From positions 124,001 through 188,000 of the forward strand of contig JAJFJU010000026.1 in the NCBI GenBank assembly GCA_021773645.1: DNA of 64,000 nt, read 5' to 3'. The DNA is from Gammaproteobacteria bacterium. GTDB lineage: Bacteria; Pseudomonadota; Gammaproteobacteria; HK1. Below are positions 18,278-31,096 of the stretch, piece after piece. A program made the position numbers and the translations under genes. How positions within the stretch are numbered: the first letter of the stretch is position 1; every line of letters begins with the position of its first letter. The notes below the pieces were generated by a model. The model ran no database searches, was not told the DNA's origin, and saw only the letters and a program-made list of their open reading frames with translations.

Positions 18278-19651
18278 ATGGAAAACCATCTACAGCGCAT
18301 CAGGGAAAAATGTCAGACGCTGCTCTGGGGTAGCGAATGTACGCCTACTGACAGCAGCAAAGGCGGCGCGCTGTGCGCCTTGCGCATCGTCTACGCCGTC
18401 TTCCGCGACCTCGCTGCCGGTCAGCTCACGCTGCGGGCCATGAGCCTGGTCTACACTACCCTGCTCTCGCTAGTGCCCCTGCTGGCCGTCAGTTTCTCGG
18501 TGCTCAAGGGCTTCGGGGTGCACAACCAGATAGAACCGATGCTGCTGAATCTGCTTACCCCGCTGGGTGACAAGGGCATCGAGATCAGCCAGACGATCAT
18601 CGGCTTTGTGGAAAACATGCGTGTTGGGGTGCTCGGCACGGTGGGGCTGGCGCTGCTGCTCTACGCCGTTATCTCGCTAATTCAGAAAATAGAACGGTCG
18701 TTTAATTTCATCTGGCGAGTGGATAAAGCCCGCCCCTTCGCACAGCGCTTCAGCGATTATCTCAGCGTCATTCTCATCGGCCCGGTGCTGGTTTTCTCTG
18801 CGCTAGGTGCTACCGCATCAGTGATGAATACCTCCCTCGTACAGTCGCTGGTAGCCATTCAGCCCTTCGGTTATCTGGTAAGTTTCGGCGTCAAGATGGT
18901 GCCCTATGTGCTGGTCATCGCCGCCTTTGCTTTCGTCTACAGCTTCATTCCCAATACCCGCGTACGGCTGTCTTCGGCGCTCATCGGCGCGGTGGTGGCA
19001 GGAGTGCTATGGCAGAGCGTCGGCTGGGGCTTCGCCTCCTTCGTGGTTTCCTCCGCCAGCTACACCGCCATCTATTCCGGCTTTGCCATCCTTATCCTAT
19101 TCATGATCTGGCTTTACCTCGCCTGGCTTATCCTCCTTATCGGCGCCTCCATCGCCTTTTACCACCAGCACGGGGAATACCTCATCAGCCGCAAGCGCGA
19201 GCTGCATCTCAGCCCACGCCAGCGCGAACAACTAGCACTACTGGCCATGTATCACATCGGCGCCCAGCATCTCGCTGGCGACACACCCTGGGCCGCAGAG
19301 GCCCTAGCCACGAGGCTACGAGTTCCGCAGGGGGCCCTGCAACGGATTCTGGATACCCTGGAAAAAGCTGGCTTGCTCAGCCCCGATCATACCGAGCCCC
19401 CCGCCTACCTGCCCGCCCAAGCACTGGAGAACATCTCCCTTTACCGCATCCTGAAAACTGTACGCCGAGCCGAGGAAGAAGGCTTTCTTGGCCCTTGGAA
19501 AATACAGCGGGAAAATACCGTGGAGGGACTGTTAGCCGAGATAGAAAACGCTGTCAGCCAGATCTTGGAAGAGCGCTCATTACGCCACCTGCTCGCCGCT
19601 GGTGAAGTTGGCAAGCACACAGCTACTGAGGGTTTAAAGCCGCTCGAATAA
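18278..19651 (+). CDS. YihY/BrkB-family inner membrane protein with C-terminal winged-helix-like domain
   Basis: A 457-residue protein. Residues about 30-305 contain the six-helix YihY/UPF0761 membrane domain (AMSLVYTTLLSLVPLLAVSFSVL, FIWRVDKARPFAQRFSDYLSVI, GVLWQSVGWGFASFVVSS). From about 310 the protein is soluble, with a helix-turn-helix-like stretch AAEALATRLRVPQGALQRILDTLEKAGLL and an acidic helical tail. The family was once called ribonuclease BN, but this is not an RNase. Function is unsettled. Its end overlaps the convergent rlmD gene by 18 bases. Confidence 0.85.
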   Translation: MENHLQRIREKCQTLLWGSECTPTDSSKGGALCALRIVYAVFRDLAAGQLTLRAMSLVYTTLLSLVPLLAVSFSVLKGFGVHNQIEPMLLNLLTPLGDKGIEISQTIIGFVENMRVGVLGTVGLALLLYAVISLIQKIERSFNFIWRVDKARPFAQRFSDYLSVILIGPVLVFSALGATASVMNTSLVQSLVAIQPFGYLVSFGVKMVPYVLVIAAFAFVYSFIPNTRVRLSSALIGAVVAGVLWQSVGWGFASFVVSSASYTAIYSGFAILILFMIWLYLAWLILLIGASIAFYHQHGEYLISRKRELHLSPRQREQLALLAMYHIGAQHLAGDTPWAAEALATRLRVPQGALQRILDTLEKAGLLSPDHTEPPAYLPAQALENISLYRILKTVRRAEEEGFLGPWKIQRENTVEGLLAEIENAVSQILEERSLRHLLAAGEVGKHTATEGLKPLE

Positions 19652-20956
19652 GGCGATGGCCTCCAAGTGGGTGGTGTGGGGAAACATATCGACTGCCCCC
19701 AGGCGAGTGAGGCGATAGCCGTGCTGCTGCACCAATGAAACAGCATCACTCGCCAGCGTTTTGGGGTTGCAGGAGATGTAGAGGATGCGGCGTGGATAAG
19801 GGGCGGCCAGCCTATTGATGACCTTGGCGGCACCGGTACGCGGGGGGTCTAGCAAGATGCCGTCCCAGGGCTGAGCCAGATACGACGCGAAGGCCTCGGG
19901 GATGCGTAGATCTACGGTATGGAACTCGGCCTGTAGGTCGTTAGCCAAAGCATTGTCCCGGGCGCGCTGGATCAGTGCGGCATCGCCTTCCAGGCCTGTA
20001 ACTCGCCCACCGCGAGCGGCGATGGCCAGGGTGAAGTTGCCCAGACCACAGTAGAGATCCAGAAAGTGCTCACCAACTTCCGGGGCAAGCCAGGATAAGG
20101 CGCGCGCTACTAGGGCACGGTTTACCTCACCATTAACCTGGACAAAATCCAAGGGTTGAAACTGGTATTCAAGGCCCTCGGCCGGCAAACGGTAAGCCAG
20201 CGCAGGAGTCTCGGGCCAGAGCGGTGCTACGGTCTCGGGGCCACCGGATTGGAGGTATAAATGCAGACCTTCAAGCTGGGCAAAACGGCGTAAATGCGAA
20301 CGATCCTCGTCGCTCAACGACTCTAGATGGCGCAGGATTAATGCGCAGCCGGTATCGCCTACGGCTATTTCAATCTGCGGGATGCTTATCCGGGCATCCA
20401 ATGATCCGAGCAATTCTCTGAGCGCCGTGATGCGTAGACCGATGGCAGGATCCAAGGTCGCACAGTGACCCAGCACCGCAAGCCGCCCCCCGAAGCGCTC
20501 ACGAAAGCCCACCAGCGCGCCACCCTTGGCCGGCACATACTTGGCCCCCATACGCGCCTTACGGCGATAGCCCCAAGGATGGCACGCCAGAGGGAGTGTT
20601 GGCTCTGGCAGCTCCAACGCACCCTCGGCGGCAAAGGCGGCCATTAACCAGGACTGCTTGAGCTCTAGTTGTGCCCCGTATGCCAGATGTTGCAGGGTGC
20701 AGGCCCCGCATTCGGAGGAATGTGGACAGGCCGGGGACACCCGTAGAGGTGAGGACTCCAGCACCGCCTCGAGCTTCGCCTCGAGTATGCCTTTACGCCG
20801 CCGTTGAGGGCGAAAGCGCACACGTTCGCCTGCCAGCGCACCCTGCACCCGATAATGCTGGCTTTCCACCGTGCACAGCCCCCAGCCCTGCCCGTCCAGA
20901 GCCTCAATGTGGGCAGTAATGGCAGTATCGCGAAAACGTCTGCGCCGTCGGCTCAT
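19634..20956 (-). CDS. rlmD: 23S rRNA (uracil-1939-C5) methyltransferase
   Basis: A 440-residue RlmD/RumA-type enzyme. An N-terminal TRAM domain (DTAITAHIEALDGQGWGLC...) is followed by iron-sulfur cysteines in CPHSSECGACTLQHL plus a fourth in GHCATLD. The SAM-binding domain has FLDLYCGLGNFTLAIA, and the catalytic regions read LLDPPRTGA and ILYISCNPKTLASD. Start 20956 (MSRRRRRFRD) is chosen over an upstream ATG at 21004 because it matches the family's basic N-terminus and the 433-residue E. coli length. In many gammaproteobacteria rlmD sits with barA/gacS and cysM, and both are within 11 kb here. Confidence 0.95.
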   Translation of the reverse strand: MSRRRRRFRDTAITAHIEALDGQGWGLCTVESQHYRVQGALAGERVRFRPQRRRKGILEAKLEAVLESSPLRVSPACPHSSECGACTLQHLAYGAQLELKQSWLMAAFAAEGALELPEPTLPLACHPWGYRRKARMGAKYVPAKGGALVGFRERFGGRLAVLGHCATLDPAIGLRITALRELLGSLDARISIPQIEIAVGDTGCALILRHLESLSDEDRSHLRRFAQLEGLHLYLQSGGPETVAPLWPETPALAYRLPAEGLEYQFQPLDFVQVNGEVNRALVARALSWLAPEVGEHFLDLYCGLGNFTLAIAARGGRVTGLEGDAALIQRARDNALANDLQAEFHTVDLRIPEAFASYLAQPWDGILLDPPRTGAAKVINRLAAPYPRRILYISCNPKTLASDAVSLVQQHGYRLTRLGAVDMFPHTTHLEAIALFERL

Positions 20957-21020
20957 AGTGAGCACCCACCACGGAGCAAATACCGAATCCATAGATCCGG
21001 GCAAACTTCAATAAACGGAT

Positions 21021-21791
21021 TCATGTCTTCCAGGCGTCCAGAAATTTAGCTAAATGTGGCTGCCCAGACTCAGCCAAGGTATCGCGTACGCGCTGGCATT
21101 CCTGCGTGTACGCTGTCGCCGTGAGATGGCCACGAGTCTGTTCAAAACGCAGATAAATGAGGTAGGTATTGAGCACATCGGTTTCGCAATAGTCGCGAAT
21201 CCCTTTCACATTACCCGCCAGATATTGGTCCCAGACATGAGCGCCGCTTTGCCCCAGCTTGCCGGGAAAGCCCAGCAGGGTGGCGATCTGGTCTAGGGGT
21301 GCCTTGGCGCTGAATTGATAGGCCGAGAGCACGTCCATGAGATCGGTGTGGCGCTCATGGAAACGGCTGAGATAATTATTGAAACGGAAGTTGCGGTCCT
21401 CGTCACCATTCTCCCAATAGCGCGCGGCGTCGATACCGTGCAACAGGGCACGGTAGTGCAACACCGGCAGGTCAAAGCCGCCACCGTTCCAGGACACCAA
21501 AGTAGGTGAATACTTCGCCACCCCGTCGAAGAAACGCTGGATTAACTCCGCCTCGGAGGATTCCTCCGACCCCAGAGACCAGACCTTAAAGCCATCACCC
21601 GAGCGCAATACCGCAGAGATAGCGACGATACGATGCAGATAATGACGCAGGAACTCGTGCCCCGCCTCCTGCTGGCGCTGGTGGAACATGGCGCGCGCCA
21701 CGTCGGCATCATCGAGATCCTCGAGATCATAGAGCCGGCGTCCAGCCTCGACGTCAGGGATGGTTTCCAGATCAAAGACAAAAACGTGCAT
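21021..21791 (-). CDS. Predicted 3'-5' exonuclease, DEDDy (DNA polymerase B exonuclease-like)
   Basis: A 256-residue ribonuclease H-like exonuclease. Exo I is VFVFDLETIPD, Exo II includes LVSWNGGGFDLPVLHYRAL, and Exo III is DYCETDVLNTYLIYLR, giving the Asp-Glu-Asp-Asp set with the Tyr of YxxxD. It matches the stand-alone family related to the PolB 3'-5' exonuclease domain. The substrate is unknown. The ATG at 21791 overlaps the upstream stop codon by one base (TAATG), and this start gives the conserved N-terminus. Confidence 0.87.
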   Translation of the reverse strand: MHVFVFDLETIPDVEAGRRLYDLEDLDDADVARAMFHQRQQEAGHEFLRHYLHRIVAISAVLRSGDGFKVWSLGSEESSEAELIQRFFDGVAKYSPTLVSWNGGGFDLPVLHYRALLHGIDAARYWENGDEDRNFRFNNYLSRFHERHTDLMDVLSAYQFSAKAPLDQIATLLGFPGKLGQSGAHVWDQYLAGNVKGIRDYCETDVLNTYLIYLRFEQTRGHLTATAYTQECQRVRDTLAESGQPHLAKFLDAWKT

Positions 21792-22378
21792 TATTTTTGC
21801 CGCCAGCGGCCGCCGTTTTGATACCACCATCCACGCCGAGCCTTGGCCACCCAACGGCGGGCAAAGGTAGCGCGGATTTGCGCCTCCCACTCGGGATGGC
21901 CGTTGGCACGGGCGATCTCCCGATACAGAGCGCTACGATCACGACTTTGATCAGCCACCAGCCGTGCGACCTGGGAACGGGAACGCAGCGGGATGGACTT
22001 CAGATCGCGCACTGCCAACTCACCATTGCTAGTCAAACCAACACTACCCGCCGCATAGTGAGGTGCCAACTGCTGGTGGCGTTTGCGCATGGTGCCACGG
22101 ATGCGGGCAATAGCCGGGGAGGAAATATCCAGATTGGGTGCCGCAGCCGCCGCGCTCGGGATAAAGAACTCCACCACCAGCTGCAATGCACTGCCCGTTT
22201 GCGGTTGATAGAACGCACCTTTATCCGCCGGTGCCTTCTTGCCTTCACCACCACCCCAAACATCCTCAATGATGCGATCTGCCGCCTTTTCTGCCGCCGC
22301 CGCGGGAAAATAGACATTGATGGTTACGCAAGCGCTGAGAAATATCAGCATCCAGCTATTACAGAGCAGTTTTTTCAT
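21791..22378 (-). CDS. Lipoprotein-like DUF1318 (YdbL family) protein
   Basis: A 195-residue exported protein. The signal sequence ends in LIFLSACVTINVYFPAAAAEKAADRIIEDVWG; LSAC is a good lipobox, and TINVYFPAAAAEKAAD is the family signature. The C-terminal half (residues 90-195) is the DUF1318 region, ending in a Trp/Arg-rich tail. YdbL-type genes accompany YdbH, a long AsmA-like protein thought to move phospholipid between membranes, and here the partner lies 27 bases upstream. The start at 22378 has AGGAGA 5 bases before it. Confidence 0.82.
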   Translation of the reverse strand: MKKLLCNSWMLIFLSACVTINVYFPAAAAEKAADRIIEDVWGGGEGKKAPADKGAFYQPQTGSALQLVVEFFIPSAAAAAPNLDISSPAIARIRGTMRKRHQQLAPHYAAGSVGLTSNGELAVRDLKSIPLRSRSQVARLVADQSRDRSALYREIARANGHPEWEAQIRATFARRWVAKARRGWWYQNGGRWRQK

Positions 22379-22405
22379 TGCCATCTCCTAAGGAATTTAA
22401 ATTGA

Positions 22406-24454
22406 TCATTTGACCACCGGCCCTTGCGAAGCCGTCGCCTGCTTCAAGCGTTCCACCAGGGTGTTCCAATCCACCTTACGGTTAAAACCCTTCACATCGA
22501 TACGCGGTATGCCTCCACCCTTGACCAGATAATAGCCTTGTGGACTATCCTCTACGCCACCCATCTCACACAGCCCCCGACGCAGTCGACAACTGAGACC
22601 AAGACGCTGGTAGGAAAAATCCTCGAAAAAACGCAGGAAGCTACGAGACAGGATATCCGCCGGACCACCGCCCAAACTGCTCAAGTTACCCACTGCACGC
22701 TGACTGATCCGATGCCGACTACGGTCATCCAGCGGAGTAGCGAATCTGGCATCGAAAGCACGCGGTTGCCAATCTTCCAGCAACAAATCATGAACCGCCC
22801 CATCCAATCTGCCGCGGATGGTACCAAAGGAGAAAACCCGGGTCAGCGCATCCAGTGAGAGATTACGAAAATCCACCTCGGCCCGCAGCCGTGGCACCAC
22901 TCCGAAGGGCTCCTCCAGGCGTAGATCCCGTATCACCATATCGCCGTCAAAAACCTGCACCCCAAGCTCGCCCTCAACCTCCATCACCCCCTGGGCATAG
23001 CGAATAGCCGGGATCTCTCCCGCCAAGTTGCCTTCAAAAGGTGGCCAGTCCAGCACTTGGCTCACCCGCTCCATAGATAGAGGACCGAGACTACCGGCAA
23101 GTTCCCATGCGAGTGCCGGGGTACCGAGCCCTTGCGCCTTGAAGCCGGCGATACGTAGCGGGCCATCAAGGATTTGAACTTCCAGTGGCCCGCTAAGTTG
23201 GAAGCTCTTACCCTTGAACTCACCGCGCAGACTGGCGGGACCCAGCGGTGCCCGATACAAGTGTCCACCCGCCCAGTTCAGAGCACTCTTCGAAACCTTT
23301 CCAGCGCTGCTCCAGTGCAGGCTACCCGAGAGCTGTTCCAGACCAAAGCGCTGCTGGTCATCATGCAGATCCACCTGTCGCAGTTCGATTTGCGCACGCA
23401 GTTCGCCATCGCCATCTCGAAGCAGGCGAAGCTCCACGTCGCCCGCAGTCTCCAATTCCGCCAACGGGGTGCCATATAAAAACGGCTGTAGATAGCTCTG
23501 GTAAAGCGCCGGGAAGTGCCCCTGTTTAAGTTCGGCCTGATGCAGCGTCCAATGATCATTGACCCGACTGGCCCGCGCGCTTAGCACGCCTATCCCCGGG
23601 TGCTGAATATGCACTTGCTGCAGTTCCAGGGTTTTACTCCGAGCTCGCCACCCCACTTTGAACTGCATTGCCAGAGGCGCATCCCCCACCTCTACCCAAA
23701 CGGGCTCCATCCCCAATACGCCCGCTTTCAGATCGGCATTTCCCGCTAGCTGCCAGCCATCTTTCACTTGTCTACCATGCAGCCGAAGTTCCACGTCGAG
23801 GTTTTCCCCGGCGGTTTCACCATCTTCACTGGAATAGGCAAGATTCTTGAGTGTGGCGCGCAGTTCGCCCTGGAGCGTCTCAACCTGCTGTTCTAGCTCG
23901 AGTTTTCCGCTCATCCGCCCAGTGGGGAATTCCGGAATCTCCGCCAAACCCCACGTTGCAAGCCATCGGCGCAGTTTGGACAGCACAATGCCATCCGCAT
24001 GCAAGGCAACCTGCCAACCTTTGGGCCTGGCAAGAAGATCCAGATTCAGTTTGCCTCCAGCAAGTCCCATACCCCGTATGTGTAGTCCGGTATCCGCGTC
24101 GACGTGGACAGCCAATTGAGGCGGGCTCCATGTGCCCCCTGATCGATGCAATTTGAGCTTTGCCGCAGGACAGAAGTAACCATCACTCCAGTCCAGAGCG
24201 GGGCAGGAAAATGCTATGACTCGGATTTTTTCCAGCGGAGCCGGGAGTTTGAGACCAAAAATCCGGCCACTGGCGCGGGTGCTACCGGTGGCCATGAATT
24301 CAAGCGCGATACGAGCGCCAGCGGCGGACCAACCCGGGCCTTCCAGGGGGCCCGTATCCAGATGCAGACCCGGGCTTCCCCATACCGGGACAATCGCTAA
24401 CCATAGCAGCAAGCCCAGACTGCAGGACGCGATCCGGGCTGACAACGAGGGCAT
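22406..24454 (-). CDS. YdbH-like (AsmA/DUF3971-related) envelope protein
   Basis: A 682-residue exported protein. A signal peptide (about 1-28, SCSLGLLLWLAIVPVWG) precedes a long run of alternating beta strands, consistent with the elongated lipid-carrying groove of AsmA/TAM/YdbH proteins. The C-terminal part, with DMVIRDLRLEEPFGVVPRLR, LDGAVHDLLLEDWQP and the conserved FEDFSYQRLGLSCRLRRGLCEMGG, fits the YdbH group. In E. coli YdbH, TamB and YhdP share transport of phospholipid to the outer membrane; that role here is by homology. It lies 21 bases after cysM and upstream of the DUF1318 gene. Confidence 0.78.
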   Translation of the reverse strand: MPSLSARIASCSLGLLLWLAIVPVWGSPGLHLDTGPLEGPGWSAAGARIALEFMATGSTRASGRIFGLKLPAPLEKIRVIAFSCPALDWSDGYFCPAAKLKLHRSGGTWSPPQLAVHVDADTGLHIRGMGLAGGKLNLDLLARPKGWQVALHADGIVLSKLRRWLATWGLAEIPEFPTGRMSGKLELEQQVETLQGELRATLKNLAYSSEDGETAGENLDVELRLHGRQVKDGWQLAGNADLKAGVLGMEPVWVEVGDAPLAMQFKVGWRARSKTLELQQVHIQHPGIGVLSARASRVNDHWTLHQAELKQGHFPALYQSYLQPFLYGTPLAELETAGDVELRLLRDGDGELRAQIELRQVDLHDDQQRFGLEQLSGSLHWSSAGKVSKSALNWAGGHLYRAPLGPASLRGEFKGKSFQLSGPLEVQILDGPLRIAGFKAQGLGTPALAWELAGSLGPLSMERVSQVLDWPPFEGNLAGEIPAIRYAQGVMEVEGELGVQVFDGDMVIRDLRLEEPFGVVPRLRAEVDFRNLSLDALTRVFSFGTIRGRLDGAVHDLLLEDWQPRAFDARFATPLDDRSRHRISQRAVGNLSSLGGGPADILSRSFLRFFEDFSYQRLGLSCRLRRGLCEMGGVEDSPQGYYLVKGGGIPRIDVKGFNRKVDWNTLVERLKQATASQGPVVK

Positions 24455-24475
24455 CAAGGGAAAAAAAGGAGCTGT

Positions 24476-25366
24476 TTAGCTTTCGGGAAATACGCCGGTG
24501 GAGAGATAACGATCGCCGCGGTCACAAACGATGGTCACGATAATCCCCCGCTCCACCTCACGCGCCACCCGCAAGGCTGCCGCCACCGCACCACCGGAAG
24601 AGATGCCGGCAAAGATCCCTTCACGAGCGGCCAGGTCGCGGGCAATCTGTTCGGCCTCTTCCTGCCCCACATCGAGGGTGCGATCCACACGGCTGGCATC
24701 GTAAATATCGGGCAGATATTCCTTCGGCCAGCGCCGGATACCCGGCACCCGGGCACCCTCGGCCGGCTGTACGCCGACAATCTCGATAGCCGGATTGACC
24801 TCCTTGAGATAACGCGAAACCCCCATGATGGTGCCGGTCGTGCCCATGGCACTGACAAAGTGGGTAATCTTGCCTTGGGTGTCACGCCAGATTTCCGGGC
24901 CCGTGCCCTCATAATGGGCGCGAGGGTTATCTGTATTACCGAACTGGTCGAGGATCCGCCCCTCACCCGCCGCCTCCATGGCCCGGGCACGGTCTATCGC
25001 CGCCTCCATGCTGCCCTTGGCCGGGGTCAGCACAATCTCCGCCCCATAGGCACGCATCACCGCCCGCCGCTCGACACTCATATTGTCGGGCATCACCAGA
25101 ATCATCCGATAACCACGGATCGCCGCGGCCATGGCCAGCGCGATGCCGGTATTGCCGCTAGTGGCCTCGATAAGCACATCCCCGGGCTTGAGTTCGCCAC
25201 GCTCCTCGGCACGGCGGATCATGCTTAGCGCCGGCCGATCCTTCACCGAACCCGCAGGGTTATTACCTTCAAGCTTGAGCAGCACGGTACTGTTGCCAGC
25301 ATCCAGACGTTGCAGACGTACCAGCGGCGTATTGCCGACAAATTCTTCAATCGTTGGGTAGTTCAT
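24476..25366 (-). CDS. cysM: Cysteine synthase B (O-acetylserine sulfhydrylase B)
   Basis: A 296-residue PLP enzyme that forms cysteine from O-acetylserine and sulfide or thiosulfate. Start MNYPTIEEFVGNTPLVRLQRL is typical. The PLP lysine lies in NPAGSVKDRPALSM, the substrate loop is EATSGNTGIALAM, the phosphate loop TMGTTGTIMGVSRYL, and EGIFAGISSGGAV is conserved. Length agrees with CysM (about 300). The gap to the divergent TonB receptor gene (25367-25498) contains TATCGG and CCGATA in inverted orientation about 17 bases apart, a possible operator. Confidence 0.96.
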   Translation of the reverse strand: MNYPTIEEFVGNTPLVRLQRLDAGNSTVLLKLEGNNPAGSVKDRPALSMIRRAEERGELKPGDVLIEATSGNTGIALAMAAAIRGYRMILVMPDNMSVERRAVMRAYGAEIVLTPAKGSMEAAIDRARAMEAAGEGRILDQFGNTDNPRAHYEGTGPEIWRDTQGKITHFVSAMGTTGTIMGVSRYLKEVNPAIEIVGVQPAEGARVPGIRRWPKEYLPDIYDASRVDRTLDVGQEEAEQIARDLAAREGIFAGISSGGAVAAALRVAREVERGIIVTIVCDRGDRYLSTGVFPES

Positions 25367-25498
25367 GGCAGCAGTTTAGCGGAAGCGGAATATCGGTACA
25401 TCCCGGGTCGTTTCCGATACCAACATGGGAAGTACAGGTGCTTTTTGATAGATTGCGCGCGGGGTTAGCATATTTATAAGAGCAGGGGACGCAGAACG

Positions 25499-27418
25499 GT
25501 GATAAAAATTCTCGTAATGGTGCTTTCACGACTGATCGCATCATCCCTCCTGCTAATGCCTATAGCCGGCCTAGCTAACTCTCCCGCCCTACCCAGCGAA
25601 GACAGCGTTTATTTTGAGCTTCCGGTGGTGCTATCGGCCACTCGTCTGGAACAGCCCATGCTCGATACCCCCGCCTCGATTACGGTCATCGACCGGGAAA
25701 TGATTGTCGCCAGCGGTGCCCGCGAGATCTACGAGTTATTCCGCATGGTGCCTGGCTTTCAGGTGGGCTCGGATAATGGCGGCGTGCATACCGTGACCTA
25801 CCACGGTCTCGGGGATCAGTTTTCCCGACGCATGCAGGTGCTCGTCGACGGCCGCTCGGTGTATACGCCCGCGGTTGGCCTGGTGGAATGGAGCAATTTT
25901 TCCGTCGATCTGGATGACATTGAACGTATTGAGGTAGTGCGCGGCCCCAACGCCGCCAGCTATGGTGCCAACGCCTTTCTCGGAGTAATCAGCATACACA
26001 CCCGACATCCTACCGTTGAGCAGGGTACACAGCTCAAGGTCATCCGGGGCGGAAACGGCATAGAACACTACCGGGCCCGCTATGCTGGCAGCGCGGGGCC
26101 GCTCAGCTTTCGCGCCAGTATTGGCCATCGTGCCGACGATGGCTTTGATCGGCGTCATGACAGCAAACGCAGCACCTTGGGTAATCTGCGCGCCGAGTGG
26201 CTGATAGGAAGCACCGATCGACTGGAATTTCAGGCCGGATTTAACGATGGGCGCCGCCAGGATGGCTTCATAGGAGACCCGCTACAAAACCCGCGCGCCA
26301 AGGCTGACAGCACCCACTTTGGCATGCTGCGTTGGCAACACGTATTTCAGCCAGAACACGAATTAAGCCTGCAGGCCTACTACAATTATTTTGACCGTAA
26401 AGAGACCTATGGCAGCGGCTTCTTTATACCTACCCCCTCACCGGTCACACAGCGCCGTTACGATCTGGAATTGGAACATCGCTTTAGCCCACACAAGCAC
26501 TGGCGAGTAGTCTGGGGTGGCAGCGCACGCCTTGACCAAGTAGATGCCCCGTTATTTCTCGGGGTGTCCCGTCCACGGCTACAAAACCATCTCTACCGGC
26601 TGTTTAGTAACGTCGAATGGCATCTGCTACCCGCGCTTAACTTCAATGCTGGGGTGATGATGGAAAACAACGACATCACCGGCACCGACTGGTCGCCCCG
26701 CCTGGCTCTTAATTATCGTATCCGGCCACGCGTCGCCATTCGTGCCAGCATTAGCAAAAGCGTACGCACCCCCTCATTTTTTGAAAATAACGTTGATTGG
26801 AAAATGCCGATTGCCGGCGGAGGTGGTGCCACAGCACTCATCTTCCTCGGCTCTGACACGCTACAGCCAGAAAAGATTATTGCCCGGGAATTAGGGCTGA
26901 TTGCCAGCACCGCCAATGGCGTTTTCCGCCTCGAGCTAAAAGCATTTAGGAATTCCCTGAGCCAAGTCATCAGCACCAGTGGTGGCGCCCCCTTTACCTT
27001 CATCAACAAGAGTTCCGCCACCGTAGAAGGGCTAGAGGGCCAGCTTCAGTGGCGACCAACACCCCAGACCCGCTTCATCCTTAGTCAGTCCAATGGACGC
27101 ACAACCAGCGACGCTGCCAATCTGGTAGCCAGTACGCCGTCAGCCACGACCCATTTACTCGGTATCTTCGATTTGGGGAACCGATATGACGCCAGCTTTT
27201 CCTTCACTCGGGTAAGCCAAATGGAATGGCTCGGAGAGGGTAATCTAGTGCCTTCATTCCGACGCGTCGATCTTCGCCTTGCCCGGCGATTTGGAGCACG
27301 TGGCAACGAAGGACAAATTGCCCTGATAGTTCAGAATCTGATGGAGAGACATATCGACTTCCGTGACCAGAACCGTTTAGGACGAACGGGATTTCTACAA
27401 CTGGAGTTGCCTTTGTAG
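25499..27418 (+). CDS. TonB-dependent outer membrane receptor
   Basis: A 639-residue receptor. The signal peptide is about residues 1-26 (LIASSLLLMPIAGLANS). The plug domain includes VVLSATRLEQPMLDTPASITVIDREMI and the signature IERIEVVRGPNAASYGANAFLGVISI. The rest is a 22-strand-type barrel ending in GFLQLELPL. GTG at 25499 is the likely start, with AGGGGA 9 bases upstream. The ligand cannot be read; similarity is to the short siderophore, cobalamin and colicin-I receptor class. It leads a three-gene operon with a periplasmic binding protein and a hybrid kinase. TTGATA-N18-CATATT upstream is a candidate promoter. Confidence 0.92.
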   Translation: MIKILVMVLSRLIASSLLLMPIAGLANSPALPSEDSVYFELPVVLSATRLEQPMLDTPASITVIDREMIVASGAREIYELFRMVPGFQVGSDNGGVHTVTYHGLGDQFSRRMQVLVDGRSVYTPAVGLVEWSNFSVDLDDIERIEVVRGPNAASYGANAFLGVISIHTRHPTVEQGTQLKVIRGGNGIEHYRARYAGSAGPLSFRASIGHRADDGFDRRHDSKRSTLGNLRAEWLIGSTDRLEFQAGFNDGRRQDGFIGDPLQNPRAKADSTHFGMLRWQHVFQPEHELSLQAYYNYFDRKETYGSGFFIPTPSPVTQRRYDLELEHRFSPHKHWRVVWGGSARLDQVDAPLFLGVSRPRLQNHLYRLFSNVEWHLLPALNFNAGVMMENNDITGTDWSPRLALNYRIRPRVAIRASISKSVRTPSFFENNVDWKMPIAGGGGATALIFLGSDTLQPEKIIARELGLIASTANGVFRLELKAFRNSLSQVISTSGGAPFTFINKSSATVEGLEGQLQWRPTPQTRFILSQSNGRTTSDAANLVASTPSATTHLLGIFDLGNRYDASFSFTRVSQMEWLGEGNLVPSFRRVDLRLARRFGARGNEGQIALIVQNLMERHIDFRDQNRLGRTGFLQLELPL

Positions 27419-27455
27419 GCCAGCGCCCTAACGGGACGCCAGCGGAATATTACCT

Positions 27456-28409
27456 ATGGAAGGGAATACACGCGCAAAGGGGTTTTATCGCCCCGCAAGC
27501 CTTATCTTGAGCCTCATGCTGCTGGCTTTCCCGGTGCATGCTCAGGACGTGATCTGGGTTATCGCAAATCCAGAACACGCGGCCCACGGGCAATTCATCC
27601 AGGGGCTGCGCGATAGCCTTTCGAAAGCCACTCAGTCCATACCAACACTGCGCCTGCTGCGTCCCGCGGAGCTGGCAGGTATCTCGATCCCGGAACGCCC
27701 CATCCTATCCATTACCGTCGGCAGCCGGGCGGCAGAATTTCTTAACAAGGCGAAGCTGGAACCTCAGCGGGAACTACATGCGCTGATTCCTCAAGCGGCA
27801 TACCAAAAGCTCTATCCACAATGGAAAACAGATTCGTTAGCAAGCACACATTCCGCCATTTACGTGAATCAGCCGATATCGCGCCTGCTTCGTCTCGCCC
27901 GTCTGGTGCTGACGGACAGCCCCCGTATCGGGGTTCTGCTCGGCCCTTGGTCACGCATCCACGAAGATGAGCTAAAACGCACAGGCAAGGTAGTAAATAT
28001 TCACACCATAGGGGCCAAACGACAGTTAATCCCTGCCCTTCAGGGGATCTTGCCCCGCAGTAACCTGTTACTTGCCCTGCCCGATCCCACGGTATACAAC
28101 CGCTCAAGTGCCCATGCCGTGTTACTCAATAGTTATCGCCACCGCGTTCCTGTGCTGGCTTTTTCTCGCAGCTATACGCGCGCTGGGGCCCTGTTATCAC
28201 TCTATTCCACACCAGGGCAGATTGGTCGCCAGACCGGAGAACTGGTCACACGCATGGCAACGACGGGCGCATGGAAACTACCACCCCCCACTCATCCACA
28301 ATATTTCAGCATCAGCATTAATCGCCAAGTGGCCTACTCCATGGGGCTATCCCTAGCTACGGAATCTGAACTGAGCGTTCAGCTTAATGCCGGGAAGAGC
28401 TCACCATGA
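27456..28409 (+). CDS. Periplasmic substrate-binding protein without transporter genes (ABC_sub_bind-like)
   Basis: A 317-residue exported protein with a Sec signal (ASLILSLMLLAFPVHA, cleavage before QD). The body has an alternating alpha/beta layout of a type I binding protein: VIWVIANPEHAAHGQFIQGL, PILSITVGSRAAEF, RIGVLLGPWSRIHEDEL, NLLLALPDPTVYN and VPVLAFSRSYTRAGAL. It resembles the uncharacterised ABC transporter periplasmic component family PF04392. No permease or ATPase gene lies nearby. The gene is 37 bases after the receptor and its stop overlaps the kinase ATG by 4 bases, so a sensory rather than transport role is suggested, by inference. Confidence 0.75.
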   Translation: MEGNTRAKGFYRPASLILSLMLLAFPVHAQDVIWVIANPEHAAHGQFIQGLRDSLSKATQSIPTLRLLRPAELAGISIPERPILSITVGSRAAEFLNKAKLEPQRELHALIPQAAYQKLYPQWKTDSLASTHSAIYVNQPISRLLRLARLVLTDSPRIGVLLGPWSRIHEDELKRTGKVVNIHTIGAKRQLIPALQGILPRSNLLLALPDPTVYNRSSAHAVLLNSYRHRVPVLAFSRSYTRAGALLSLYSTPGQIGRQTGELVTRMATTGAWKLPPPTHPQYFSISINRQVAYSMGLSLATESELSVQLNAGKSSP

Positions 28410-31096
28410 ACAAGCTGGGGATCCGTACGCGCGTCATCCTGCTGGCCTTGGTGCCCTCGCTACTCATCGCATTGTCTCTGACCGTCATCTATACCCATCT
28501 ACGGGTCCTCGATCTGGAACGTGGGTTGGAAGAACAGGGCCGGGCTCTGGCCACATATCTCGCTCCTGCCAGCGAGTACGGAGTATTTTCCGGAAATCTG
28601 CGTGTACTTCAGGGACTTGCCAACGCAGCCATTGGAGATAGCCAGGTGCGTTCCGTACGCATCGAGAATCAGCGCAACGAAATATTGACCCACAGCGGCC
28701 CCCCCCCCCATAGCCACGCCGCGTTTAAAGCTAACCCGGGCACGCGCCCCATATTATTGGATTCACAGGATGGCCGGACTCTATTTATTCGCACCCCGGT
28801 ACTTTCGCACGAACTTGAGATCGTGGATTTCGCCCTTGATCCTGAGCCGATATCAAGCACATCTAGCCCTACTATCGGCTGGGTAACAGTAGAACTGACA
28901 CGCTCAAAGATGCTTAACAACAAGCGCCAAATTATTATTTTAAGCCTGTTGATCATGTTGCTAGGGGCCGGTTTCATCATCATCCTTGCCCTGCGCTGGA
29001 GCAGGGGGATCGTGCAACCCATATCCCACCTTACCCAAGCAGTAGAACAACTGGAAAATGGCCAACTGGATACACGGGTAAGCCTGGAGGGTGAGGGTGA
29101 ATTACAACGCCTACAAGGCAGCATCAACACTATGGCCCGCTCCCTGCAAACAGCACAGCATGACCTCCAAGAGAAAGTAGATGCCGCAACCCGCCATCTA
29201 CGCGAAACCCTGCGCACGGCGGAGTCGCAAAATATTGAACTGGAGGCGGCCAAGGAACAGGCACTTGCTGCCAGCAGAGAAAAATCCAACTTTCTCACCC
29301 ATATGAGCCACGAGCTGCGTACCCCACTCAACGGGGTGTTGGGCTACTGTAAGTTGCTGGATGCCAGCCCGCTCGATCCGGAACAGCGTGACTACGCCGA
29401 GATCATCCACAACTCCAGCCAAAATCTGCTGCGCCAGATCAATGAACTACTGGATTTATCCCGTATCGAGGCGGGACGAATCGATCTGGAATGCACTGAG
29501 TTTCACATGGGCGAATGCATTGAGGATGTACTCGACCTGCTGGCACCGAGTGCACATGCCAAGGGTCTGGAACTGGTTTACTTCATAGCCTCGGATATCC
29601 CGCACTGCTGCCAAGGGGACCCTTTGAGAATTCGCCAAGTGGTGCTCAACCTGGTGGCCAACGCCATCAAATTCACCACTGCCGGTAGCGTCATTGTCAG
29701 CCTCACTCATGCCGATGAGGAATCCGACACCATGGGCATCGAGATCAGCGTAAGTGATACCGGCACCGGTATCCCCGAGGCGCTACAGCAACGCATTTTT
29801 GATCCCTACCAACAGACCGAGCGGGAACACCAGGCCGAAGGCAGCGGCCTCGGGCTCGCTATTTCGGCAAAACTAGCGGCCTCCATGGACGGTGACATCC
29901 GAGTCGAAAGTGTCGCGGGAGAGGGCTCTACTTTCATCTTTTCACTGCGCTGCTGTCATCTGCCACCCCCCGTCTATGAGCAGAGTGAGCTCGAGGGCAG
30001 CCGCGTATTGCTCTATGTGCCGCATCCCTTTGCACGCATGTCGATACGCGAGCAAATGCGCAACTGGGGCATACAGGTTAGAGAGATTCGCACCCTGGAT
30101 GCCTCTACAAAGGGGCACGCCCACGGACAGAATCGGCGGGCCCACCCCGACTGTGTGATCCTGGATCTGAGTCGTGAGGACGACAAACAACAAATCCTCG
30201 ACCGCATGACACTGTCGTGCCCGGTATTGATACTCGATCATCGGGACTCGGCACTTAGACAGCACAACGGCGAGCCCTGCGCCTTCGTGAGAAAACCCGT
30301 ACGCAACGCAGAGCTACGGCTACAACTACAGCAGCTAACAGGATCGGTAGAGAAATCGAAACCCGAGCCGATATCCCGAGACCAAAACACGCCGCAGCCA
30401 CACTCGGGAGCCCACGTGCTGTTGGTGGAAGATAATCTAGTCAATCGAAAACTCGCCACCACTTTATTGGAAAATCTTGGCATCCGGGTCAGCCAGGCTG
30501 GCACCGGCCAAGAGGCCCTAGAGGCCTTCTTCCATCACCGCTTTGACCTGATATTGATGGATTTACAGCTGCCCGATCGGGATGGCCTGTGGCTGACCGA
30601 ACGCCTGCATGTACTGGAGTCCGGCTCCCGCCATACCCCTATCATCGCACTCAGCGCCGATGCCATGCCCGAGACCCAAACCCAAGCGATCGCTGCTGGT
30701 ATGGATGCCTTTCTTAGTAAACCGCTGGATCGCAAGACGCTCCATCAAACCCTGGCGCGATGGTTACCCGTTCGGGCATCAGCCCCGGGAGCAATCCCTG
30801 ATACGCCCGTCCAAAACACTGACCAATCCTCGCTGGAGACGGATCTGGCGGCCTTATTGCGAAAAGACCTAAAGCCACGTCCTAGCAAAATCAACGCAGC
30901 CCTTAAAGCCAAGGATTGGCGCACTCTCCGTGAGGAAGTTCACACCATTGCCGGTGGAGCGGCATGCTGTGGTGCGATGCAACTGAAATCTGCTGCTAGT
31001 GCCTTAGAACAAACCATTGTTGATGAGGAGTTTGGGAGTATCGCAGACGACGTGGAGCAGTTATTACGGGAGATCGACGAGCAGCTAGAGAACTAA
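28406..31096 (+). CDS. barA: BarA/GacS-type hybrid sensor histidine kinase
   Basis: An 896-residue hybrid kinase. TM1 (about 9-29), a periplasmic loop of about 140 residues with LEEQGRALATYLAPASEYGVFSGN, TM2 (about 173-193), HAMP, then HisKA with His302 in THMSHELRTPLNGVLG. The ATPase has the N box VVLNLVANAIKFT and G boxes VSDTGTGIP and GSGLGLAIS. A degenerate receiver (about 530-645) is followed by a true receiver with Asp719 (LILMDLQLPDRDG) and an HPt with His846 (VHTIAGGAACCG). This is the BarA/GacS phosphorelay layout, which normally signals to UvrY/GacA and the Csr system; that partner is not in this window. It overlaps the binding-protein gene by 4 bases. Confidence 0.92.
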   Translation: MNKLGIRTRVILLALVPSLLIALSLTVIYTHLRVLDLERGLEEQGRALATYLAPASEYGVFSGNLRVLQGLANAAIGDSQVRSVRIENQRNEILTHSGPPPHSHAAFKANPGTRPILLDSQDGRTLFIRTPVLSHELEIVDFALDPEPISSTSSPTIGWVTVELTRSKMLNNKRQIIILSLLIMLLGAGFIIILALRWSRGIVQPISHLTQAVEQLENGQLDTRVSLEGEGELQRLQGSINTMARSLQTAQHDLQEKVDAATRHLRETLRTAESQNIELEAAKEQALAASREKSNFLTHMSHELRTPLNGVLGYCKLLDASPLDPEQRDYAEIIHNSSQNLLRQINELLDLSRIEAGRIDLECTEFHMGECIEDVLDLLAPSAHAKGLELVYFIASDIPHCCQGDPLRIRQVVLNLVANAIKFTTAGSVIVSLTHADEESDTMGIEISVSDTGTGIPEALQQRIFDPYQQTEREHQAEGSGLGLAISAKLAASMDGDIRVESVAGEGSTFIFSLRCCHLPPPVYEQSELEGSRVLLYVPHPFARMSIREQMRNWGIQVREIRTLDASTKGHAHGQNRRAHPDCVILDLSREDDKQQILDRMTLSCPVLILDHRDSALRQHNGEPCAFVRKPVRNAELRLQLQQLTGSVEKSKPEPISRDQNTPQPHSGAHVLLVEDNLVNRKLATTLLENLGIRVSQAGTGQEALEAFFHHRFDLILMDLQLPDRDGLWLTERLHVLESGSRHTPIIALSADAMPETQTQAIAAGMDAFLSKPLDRKTLHQTLARWLPVRASAPGAIPDTPVQNTDQSSLETDLAALLRKDLKPRPSKINAALKAKDWRTLREEVHTIAGGAACCGAMQLKSAASALEQTIVDEEFGSIADDVEQLLREIDEQLEN

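Follow-up and report, generated by a model that had tools for sequence, protein, structure and literature searches.

Why should a TonB-dependent receptor (TBDR) of the outer membrane, an orphan periplasmic binding protein (SBP) and a BarA/GacS-type hybrid histidine kinase be encoded one behind the other? The Gac/Bar-Csr pathway governs biofilm formation, virulence, secretion and carbon flow in many Gammaproteobacteria. The signal of GacS is described as unidentified (PMC7695008), and the GacS and BarA literature that we consulted, both reviews and primary papers (including PMC7695008 and PMC8639471), does not mention TonB and treats the kinase as a lone sensor. In a gammaproteobacterial stretch of 64,000 nucleotides (the window), the three genes lie in series at 25499-31096 (+). 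A preliminary description of this locus regarded it as the usual barA locus with two sensory genes joined to it, and proposed a relay in which the receptor imports a ligand that the binding protein captures and reports to the kinase. We examined the genes of the locus, their distribution and their ancestry.

The three genes and the barA locus

Our check of the open reading frames in the window gave a gap of 37 bases between the TBDR and SBP genes and an overlap of 4 bases (ATGA) between the SBP and kinase genes, in exact agreement with the spacing described previously. The putative operon is flanked by cysM and rimI. Upstream, on the opposite strand, are cysM (24476-25366, -) and rlmD (19634-21004, -), the two barA-locus markers that had been named as neighbours, which we recognized from the ORF list and the neighbour gene annotation. 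In E. coli, rlmD directly adjoins barA; here, three genes (encoding an exonuclease, a DUF1318 protein and a 683-a.a. protein without a Pfam match) stand between rlmD and cysM. The latter two, at 21791-24457 (-), look lineage-specific, because the rlmD-cysM gap is far shorter in a relative (L054). The intergenic region between the divergent cysM gene and the putative operon (25367-25498, +) is the presumed promoter region by sequence inspection and promoter scan; its single sigma-70-like match (9/12, at 25445-25474) is at chance level. Promoter-like matches in the sigma-70 scan were not above chance, and the terminator scan, likewise at chance level, found no terminator-like site on the + strand within the putative operon.

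The kinase (896 a.a., 28406-31096, +; ORF, Pfam and NCBIfam) contains, according to Pfam, an sCache_4 domain (residues 35-170), HAMP (200-248), HisKA (293-357), HATPase (404-515), a receiver (671-783) and Hpt (817-892), which is the domain order of BarA and GacS. Its best NCBIfam model is BarA with 602 bits (LetS, 428 bits); since the curated cut-off is 890, we file the protein as BarA-type and not as the NCBIfam BarA equivalog. Aligned over residues 1-871, it shares 32% identity with E. coli BarA. The periplasmic sCache_4 sensor (28508-28915, +; Pfam and structure model), the proposed partner of the SBP, matches the GacS periplasmic domain (5o7j) in sequence, and is modelled with a pLDDT of 92 as one Cache domain flanked by two membrane-spanning helices that run on into HAMP.

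No second kinase with an sCache_4 sensor was found in the genome of the window, and on that ground we rejected the possibility that this kinase is a paralogue accompanying a canonical barA. The genome also encodes an orthologue of UvrY (47% identical), directly before uvrC, and two csrA genes outside the window (C28:224058 and C19:235400). The single sCache_4 kinase, the UvrY orthologue, CsrA and the rlmD/cysM locus together indicate that the whole barA pathway is present. The designation as a barA locus thus holds, on the kinase domains, the neighbours and the single copy in the genome. A UvrY-like regulator was present in 68 of the 72 genomes tested.

The SBP (317 a.a., 27456-28409, +; ORF, family profile and predicted fold) has a Sec-type signal peptide ending in FPVHA and no lipobox. 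As a single sequence it matches Pfam ABC_sub_bind (PF04392) weakly, with 16.8 bits, below the cut-off. Its family profile matches 3lkv (3e-18), TrpX (3lft) and CD0873, and its predicted fold (pLDDT 86) aligns with CD0873, the V. cholerae protein 3lkv and TrpX at Z scores of 20-23. The model is closer to these three than to other two-lobed proteins, LuxP being remote. The profile match and the predicted two-lobed fold place the SBP in the PF04392/TrpX superfamily. No second copy was found in the genome of the window.

The TBDR (639 a.a., GTG start, 25499-27418, +) consists of a plug and a TonB barrel; Pfam shows only these, with the plug starting at residue 55, and no FecA-type STN signalling domain at the N-terminus. 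Its nearest solved structures are the colicin I receptor Cir and the enterobactin receptors, a kinship that leaves its ligand unfixed. The best NCBIfam model, the TOL_0244 family, scores 252 bits, below the cut-off of that model.

Distribution, core and outputs of the module

Among 55 genomes of relatives, 11 encode the SBP, in most cases with the same TBDR and kinase genes on either side. In the main survey of 369 gammaproteobacterial genomes, drawn evenly over the class, the SBP profile matched in 89 genomes and in 73 of the 272 genera. The trio therefore recurs far beyond close relatives, a spread that led us to reject an insertion confined to a single genus. We then compared 160 loci, 80 from the survey and 80 with organism names (the sets overlap in part); the latter include Sedimenticola, Marinobacterium, Porticoccus, Nitrincola, Thiobacillus, Sulfuricella, Sulfuritalea, Rhodoferax and Rhodocyclus. 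An sCache_4-HAMP protein is encoded directly downstream of the SBP in 69 and 76 loci of the two sets, a TBDR directly upstream in 56 and 60 (116/160), and both together in 49 and 57, all of these counts being lowered by contigs that end early. Of the 74 strong SBP matches in the 369 survey genomes, 66 were followed by the sensor.

The linkage was also observed directly when the search started from the sensor. Pfam sCache_4 retrieved 70 proteins in 67 of the 369 genomes, 47 of them with an SBP directly upstream, and a sensor plus HAMP profile retrieved 101 proteins in 97 genomes, 69 with the SBP gene directly upstream; the latter profile leans to the linked state because it was built from linked and solo sequences, of which the linked were more numerous. 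Sensor proteins without a directly upstream SBP include two loci with reordered parts (regulator-TBDR-kinase-SBP in L256, and kinase-SBP at the rlmD locus in L257), two with a weaker SBP match (L260, L286) and one with a TBDR alone (L261). About half of the linked non-redundant kinases (37/83) are encoded near cysM or rlmD. The true solo kinases occupy the same rlmD/cysM locus, a place next to gltX or other sites.

The output behind the sensor is exchanged. We observed the SBP and the sCache_4 sensor in front of a BarA-type hybrid kinase, of a one-receiver kinase (Rhodocyclales, Rhodoferax) and of GGDEF-EAL domains (Thiobacillus, Sulfuricella and others). Since related loci keep both parts while the output changes or the TBDR is missing, the core of the module is the SBP plus the sCache_4 sensor, and the TBDR is a frequent, dispensable accessory. 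In Thiobacillus and Sulfuricella (L145, L148, L151, L154, L191), the SBP and an sCache_4-GGDEF-EAL protein are encoded without a TBDR, behind rnhA, gloB, methyltransferase and dnaQ-like genes; by analogy with NspS-MbaA, this pair would be a two-gene receptor acting on c-di-GMP. At seven other loci (L057, L067, L070, L086, L090, L099, L107), a response regulator gene, of NarL/LuxR type where read, directly precedes the TBDR or SBP gene, which completes a two-component system with a regulator of its own. In L060 (1-8227), a TBDR and an SBP are encoded next to lexA, with no signalling protein adjoining.

The earlier relay is accordingly retained in part: the sensory genes are joined to the kinase, but an obligatory start at the receptor is weakened by several loci that retain SBP and sensor yet lack a TBDR. 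One could go further and regard the TBDR as the outer end of uptake for a nutrient unrelated to the signal, so that the sensor comprises SBP and kinase only. Four loci with SBP and kinase but no TBDR at the same cysM/rlmD place (L079, L084, L117, L182) and the SBP-GGDEF-EAL pairs of Thiobacillus and Sulfuricella speak for such a division. However, the TBDR is directly upstream in nearly three-quarters of the loci, and TBDR distances correlate with SBP distances (0.63 when the kinase domain is controlled for), and we consider the division rather unlikely.

Is the SBP simply part of an uptake system? According to this explanation, the TBDR and SBP would belong to ordinary uptake and rely on an ABC permease and ATPase encoded elsewhere, and the kinase would merely lie downstream or regulate the uptake genes. 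The solved members of the SBP superfamily do include ABC binding proteins such as TrpX, and the genome of the window has four BPD_transp_2 permease genes, in two pairs, elsewhere. As the preliminary description had noted, however, no ABC permease or ATPase gene adjoins the SBP in the window. The same holds for the 160 related loci, which gave no permease match (one ATPase and two permeases served as queries, so distant permeases could be missed) and contained ABC ATPase genes in 16 cases, none adjoining the module. The partners expected of a TrpXYZ-type uptake system are thus absent beside the SBP. Moreover, SBP and sensor remain neighbours in loci that lack the TBDR and in those with a GGDEF-EAL output. 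We therefore judge ordinary uptake to be improbable. Natural fusions of SBP and sensor, which would show a physical partnership, were looked for and none was found.

Ancestry of the linked loci and a sensor signature

We next compared the distances of the parts with one another. Over all linked loci, the rank correlation of SBP distances was 0.61 with the sensor domain and 0.22 with the kinase domain. For loci other than barA, partial rank correlations were 0.68 for SBP and sensor versus 0.02 for SBP and kinase domain, suggesting that sensor and SBP travel together from one output to another. At the barA locus, the values were similar (0.33 with the sensor and 0.46 with the kinase domain), which suggests that all parts descend together there; an SBP that follows the kinase domain no less closely than the sensor is what simple vertical descent would produce. 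SBP distances at this locus also follow those of cysM (0.62), which again favours vertical descent.

A quick, midpoint-rooted tree of 109 kinases (83 linked, 25 solo and one with a TBDR only) has the linked kinases spread over its whole extent, and the solo ones form several small groups amid them. The label changes between linked and solo 12 times, at least 5 of which are forced by starred branches, as against 23.5 times in shuffles. E. coli BarA falls within a starred set of 13 that also holds linked kinases. Solo kinases such as E. coli BarA probably derive from linked ancestors by loss of the accessory genes. Loss is the simpler reading and falls short of proof, since the root is a midpoint, many forks are open and several branches are long. 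The picture of a usual solo locus to which two genes were added is thus probably backwards: the linked state is the commoner one in both sensor-first searches, and the solo state is scattered on the tree.

The opposite history would be that TBDR-SBP cassettes were repeatedly inserted beside barA by transfer and that the solo state is ancestral. Such a history could be accommodated by a tree that lacks an outgroup root and on which the label changes many times, but it is at odds with the agreement between SBP and cysM distances and with the nesting of small solo groups within the linked kinases, and we regard it as unlikely.

Several positions of the sensor differ between the two classes. The motif SEYGVFSGN (kinase residues 56-64; 28571-28597, +; alignment and model), predicted to follow the long first helix as a short helix plus turn, is kept in SBP-linked sensors and relaxed in solo ones. 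In the major loop of the sensor, Asp141 (28826-28828, +; alignment and model) is present in 62 of 82 linked and 4 of 25 solo kinases. In the column comparison, the proportions for D141 are 74% in linked kinases, 78% in SBP-linked non-kinases and 17% in solo kinases. The corresponding proportions are 64, 74 and 12% for S62 and 75, 83 and 29% for G63, and Tyr or Phe occupies position 58 in 79 of 82 linked but only 12 of 25 solo kinases. Thus D141, S62, G63, E57 and Y/F58 are conserved in linked kinases and linked cyclases alike and relaxed in solo kinases, a class-specific conservation that can be read directly from the alignment. The D141 contrast had the same direction on independent pairs (five starred-branch pairs, agreeing 3.9 on average), and is not significant because five pairs cannot reach 0.05. 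Columns 57-63 and 141 are candidate docking or gating sites.

The pocket of the sensor itself raises a further possibility, namely that the SBP and the sCache_4 pocket of the kinase sense different ligands, the SBP then providing a further input or an inhibition, in the manner of YfiR on YfiN. In E. coli, BarA itself binds acetate and responds to its protonated form without any SBP (PMC8639471), and His97 is essential in P. aeruginosa GacS (PMC5595915). With a loop alignment that is uncertain, the window kinase has His at position 97 and Glu at position 133 of the GacS pocket, and thus keeps the essential histidine. Across the linked kinases, on the other hand, His97 and His133 are not conserved, both positions being too variable in the linked and solo groups to serve as a mark of direct ligand binding (again with the uncertain loop alignment). 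Two separate ligands seem to us unlikely.

A probable multi-part receptor and its known relatives

Taken together, we think it fairly probable that the products of the putative operon form a multi-part receptor of the BarA-UvrY-Csr pathway. The recurrence of the same arrangement in dozens of bacterial families suggests that the SBP is probably the missing signal catcher. From the anatomy of the locus, its conservation and the precedents of NspS-MbaA and LuxP-LuxQ, we infer that the SBP acts as the ligand-binding subunit of the sCache_4 sensor and that the TBDR supplies the ligand. In the proposed mechanism, the TBDR would carry a ligand that is scarce or bulky through the outer membrane, and the SBP would bind it in its two-lobed cleft and dock on sCache_4, probably near the SEYGVFSGN turn and the Asp141-bearing major loop. 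Docking would change the kinase or phosphatase activity, phosphate would pass along the His-Asp-His route via receiver and Hpt to UvrY, and UvrY would control CsrA through small RNAs.

More tentatively, and with somewhat less than an even chance in our estimation, BarA/GacS may have been multi-part ancestrally: an outer-membrane port and an SBP would capture the signal, the sCache_4 kinase would read the loaded SBP, solo kinases would be reduced forms, and the long-sought signal might be found via the SBP of linked species. If the signal is borne by the soluble SBP, this protein can be purified and searched for its ligand by extraction or thermal shift, which is far harder with a membrane kinase. 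If the multi-part receptor is true, the module would be a sensory front end common to histidine kinases and c-di-GMP enzymes.

How does this receptor relate to known systems? It resembles BarA-UvrY and GacS-GacA in the kinase architecture, the rlmD/cysM locus, UvrY before uvrC, CsrA and the single copy in the genome, but textbook BarA and GacS are described without a TBDR or SBP. We found no report of a TBDR-SBP-BarA trio in open-licence papers, a scope that makes this weak evidence of absence. TrpX and CD0873 of the PF04392 superfamily share the sequence profile and fold of the SBP; TrpX, however, is part of an ABC transporter.

Closer in function are systems in which a periplasmic protein acts on a membrane signalling protein. 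In LuxP-LuxQ, the AI-2 receptor of Vibrio harveyi, a periplasmic binding protein is likewise paired with a hybrid kinase, and LuxP and the SBP both have the type-I two-lobed fold; yet LuxP is only a remote structural match, and the sensor here is sCache_4 and not LuxQ-type. To our knowledge, no TBDR belongs to the LuxPQ system. YfiR, a DUF4154 protein, is a small periplasmic regulator of the cyclase YfiN, a Cache/HAMP-type membrane signalling protein. The likeness lies in a periplasmic regulator acting on such a protein, and the difference in the regulator, which here is a binding protein and not DUF4154. NspS is a PotD-type protein. In the V. cholerae polyamine receptor NspS-MbaA, the binding protein reports to an inner-membrane GGDEF-EAL protein (PMC8967002, PMC5646818), an arrangement that resembles the SBP-sCache_4-GGDEF-EAL relatives found here, although NspS binds polyamines, the sensor domain is another one and no TBDR takes part. 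SBP-assisted sensing is thus known elsewhere; what appears to be new is its occurrence in the BarA/GacS family and its joining to an outer-membrane receptor.
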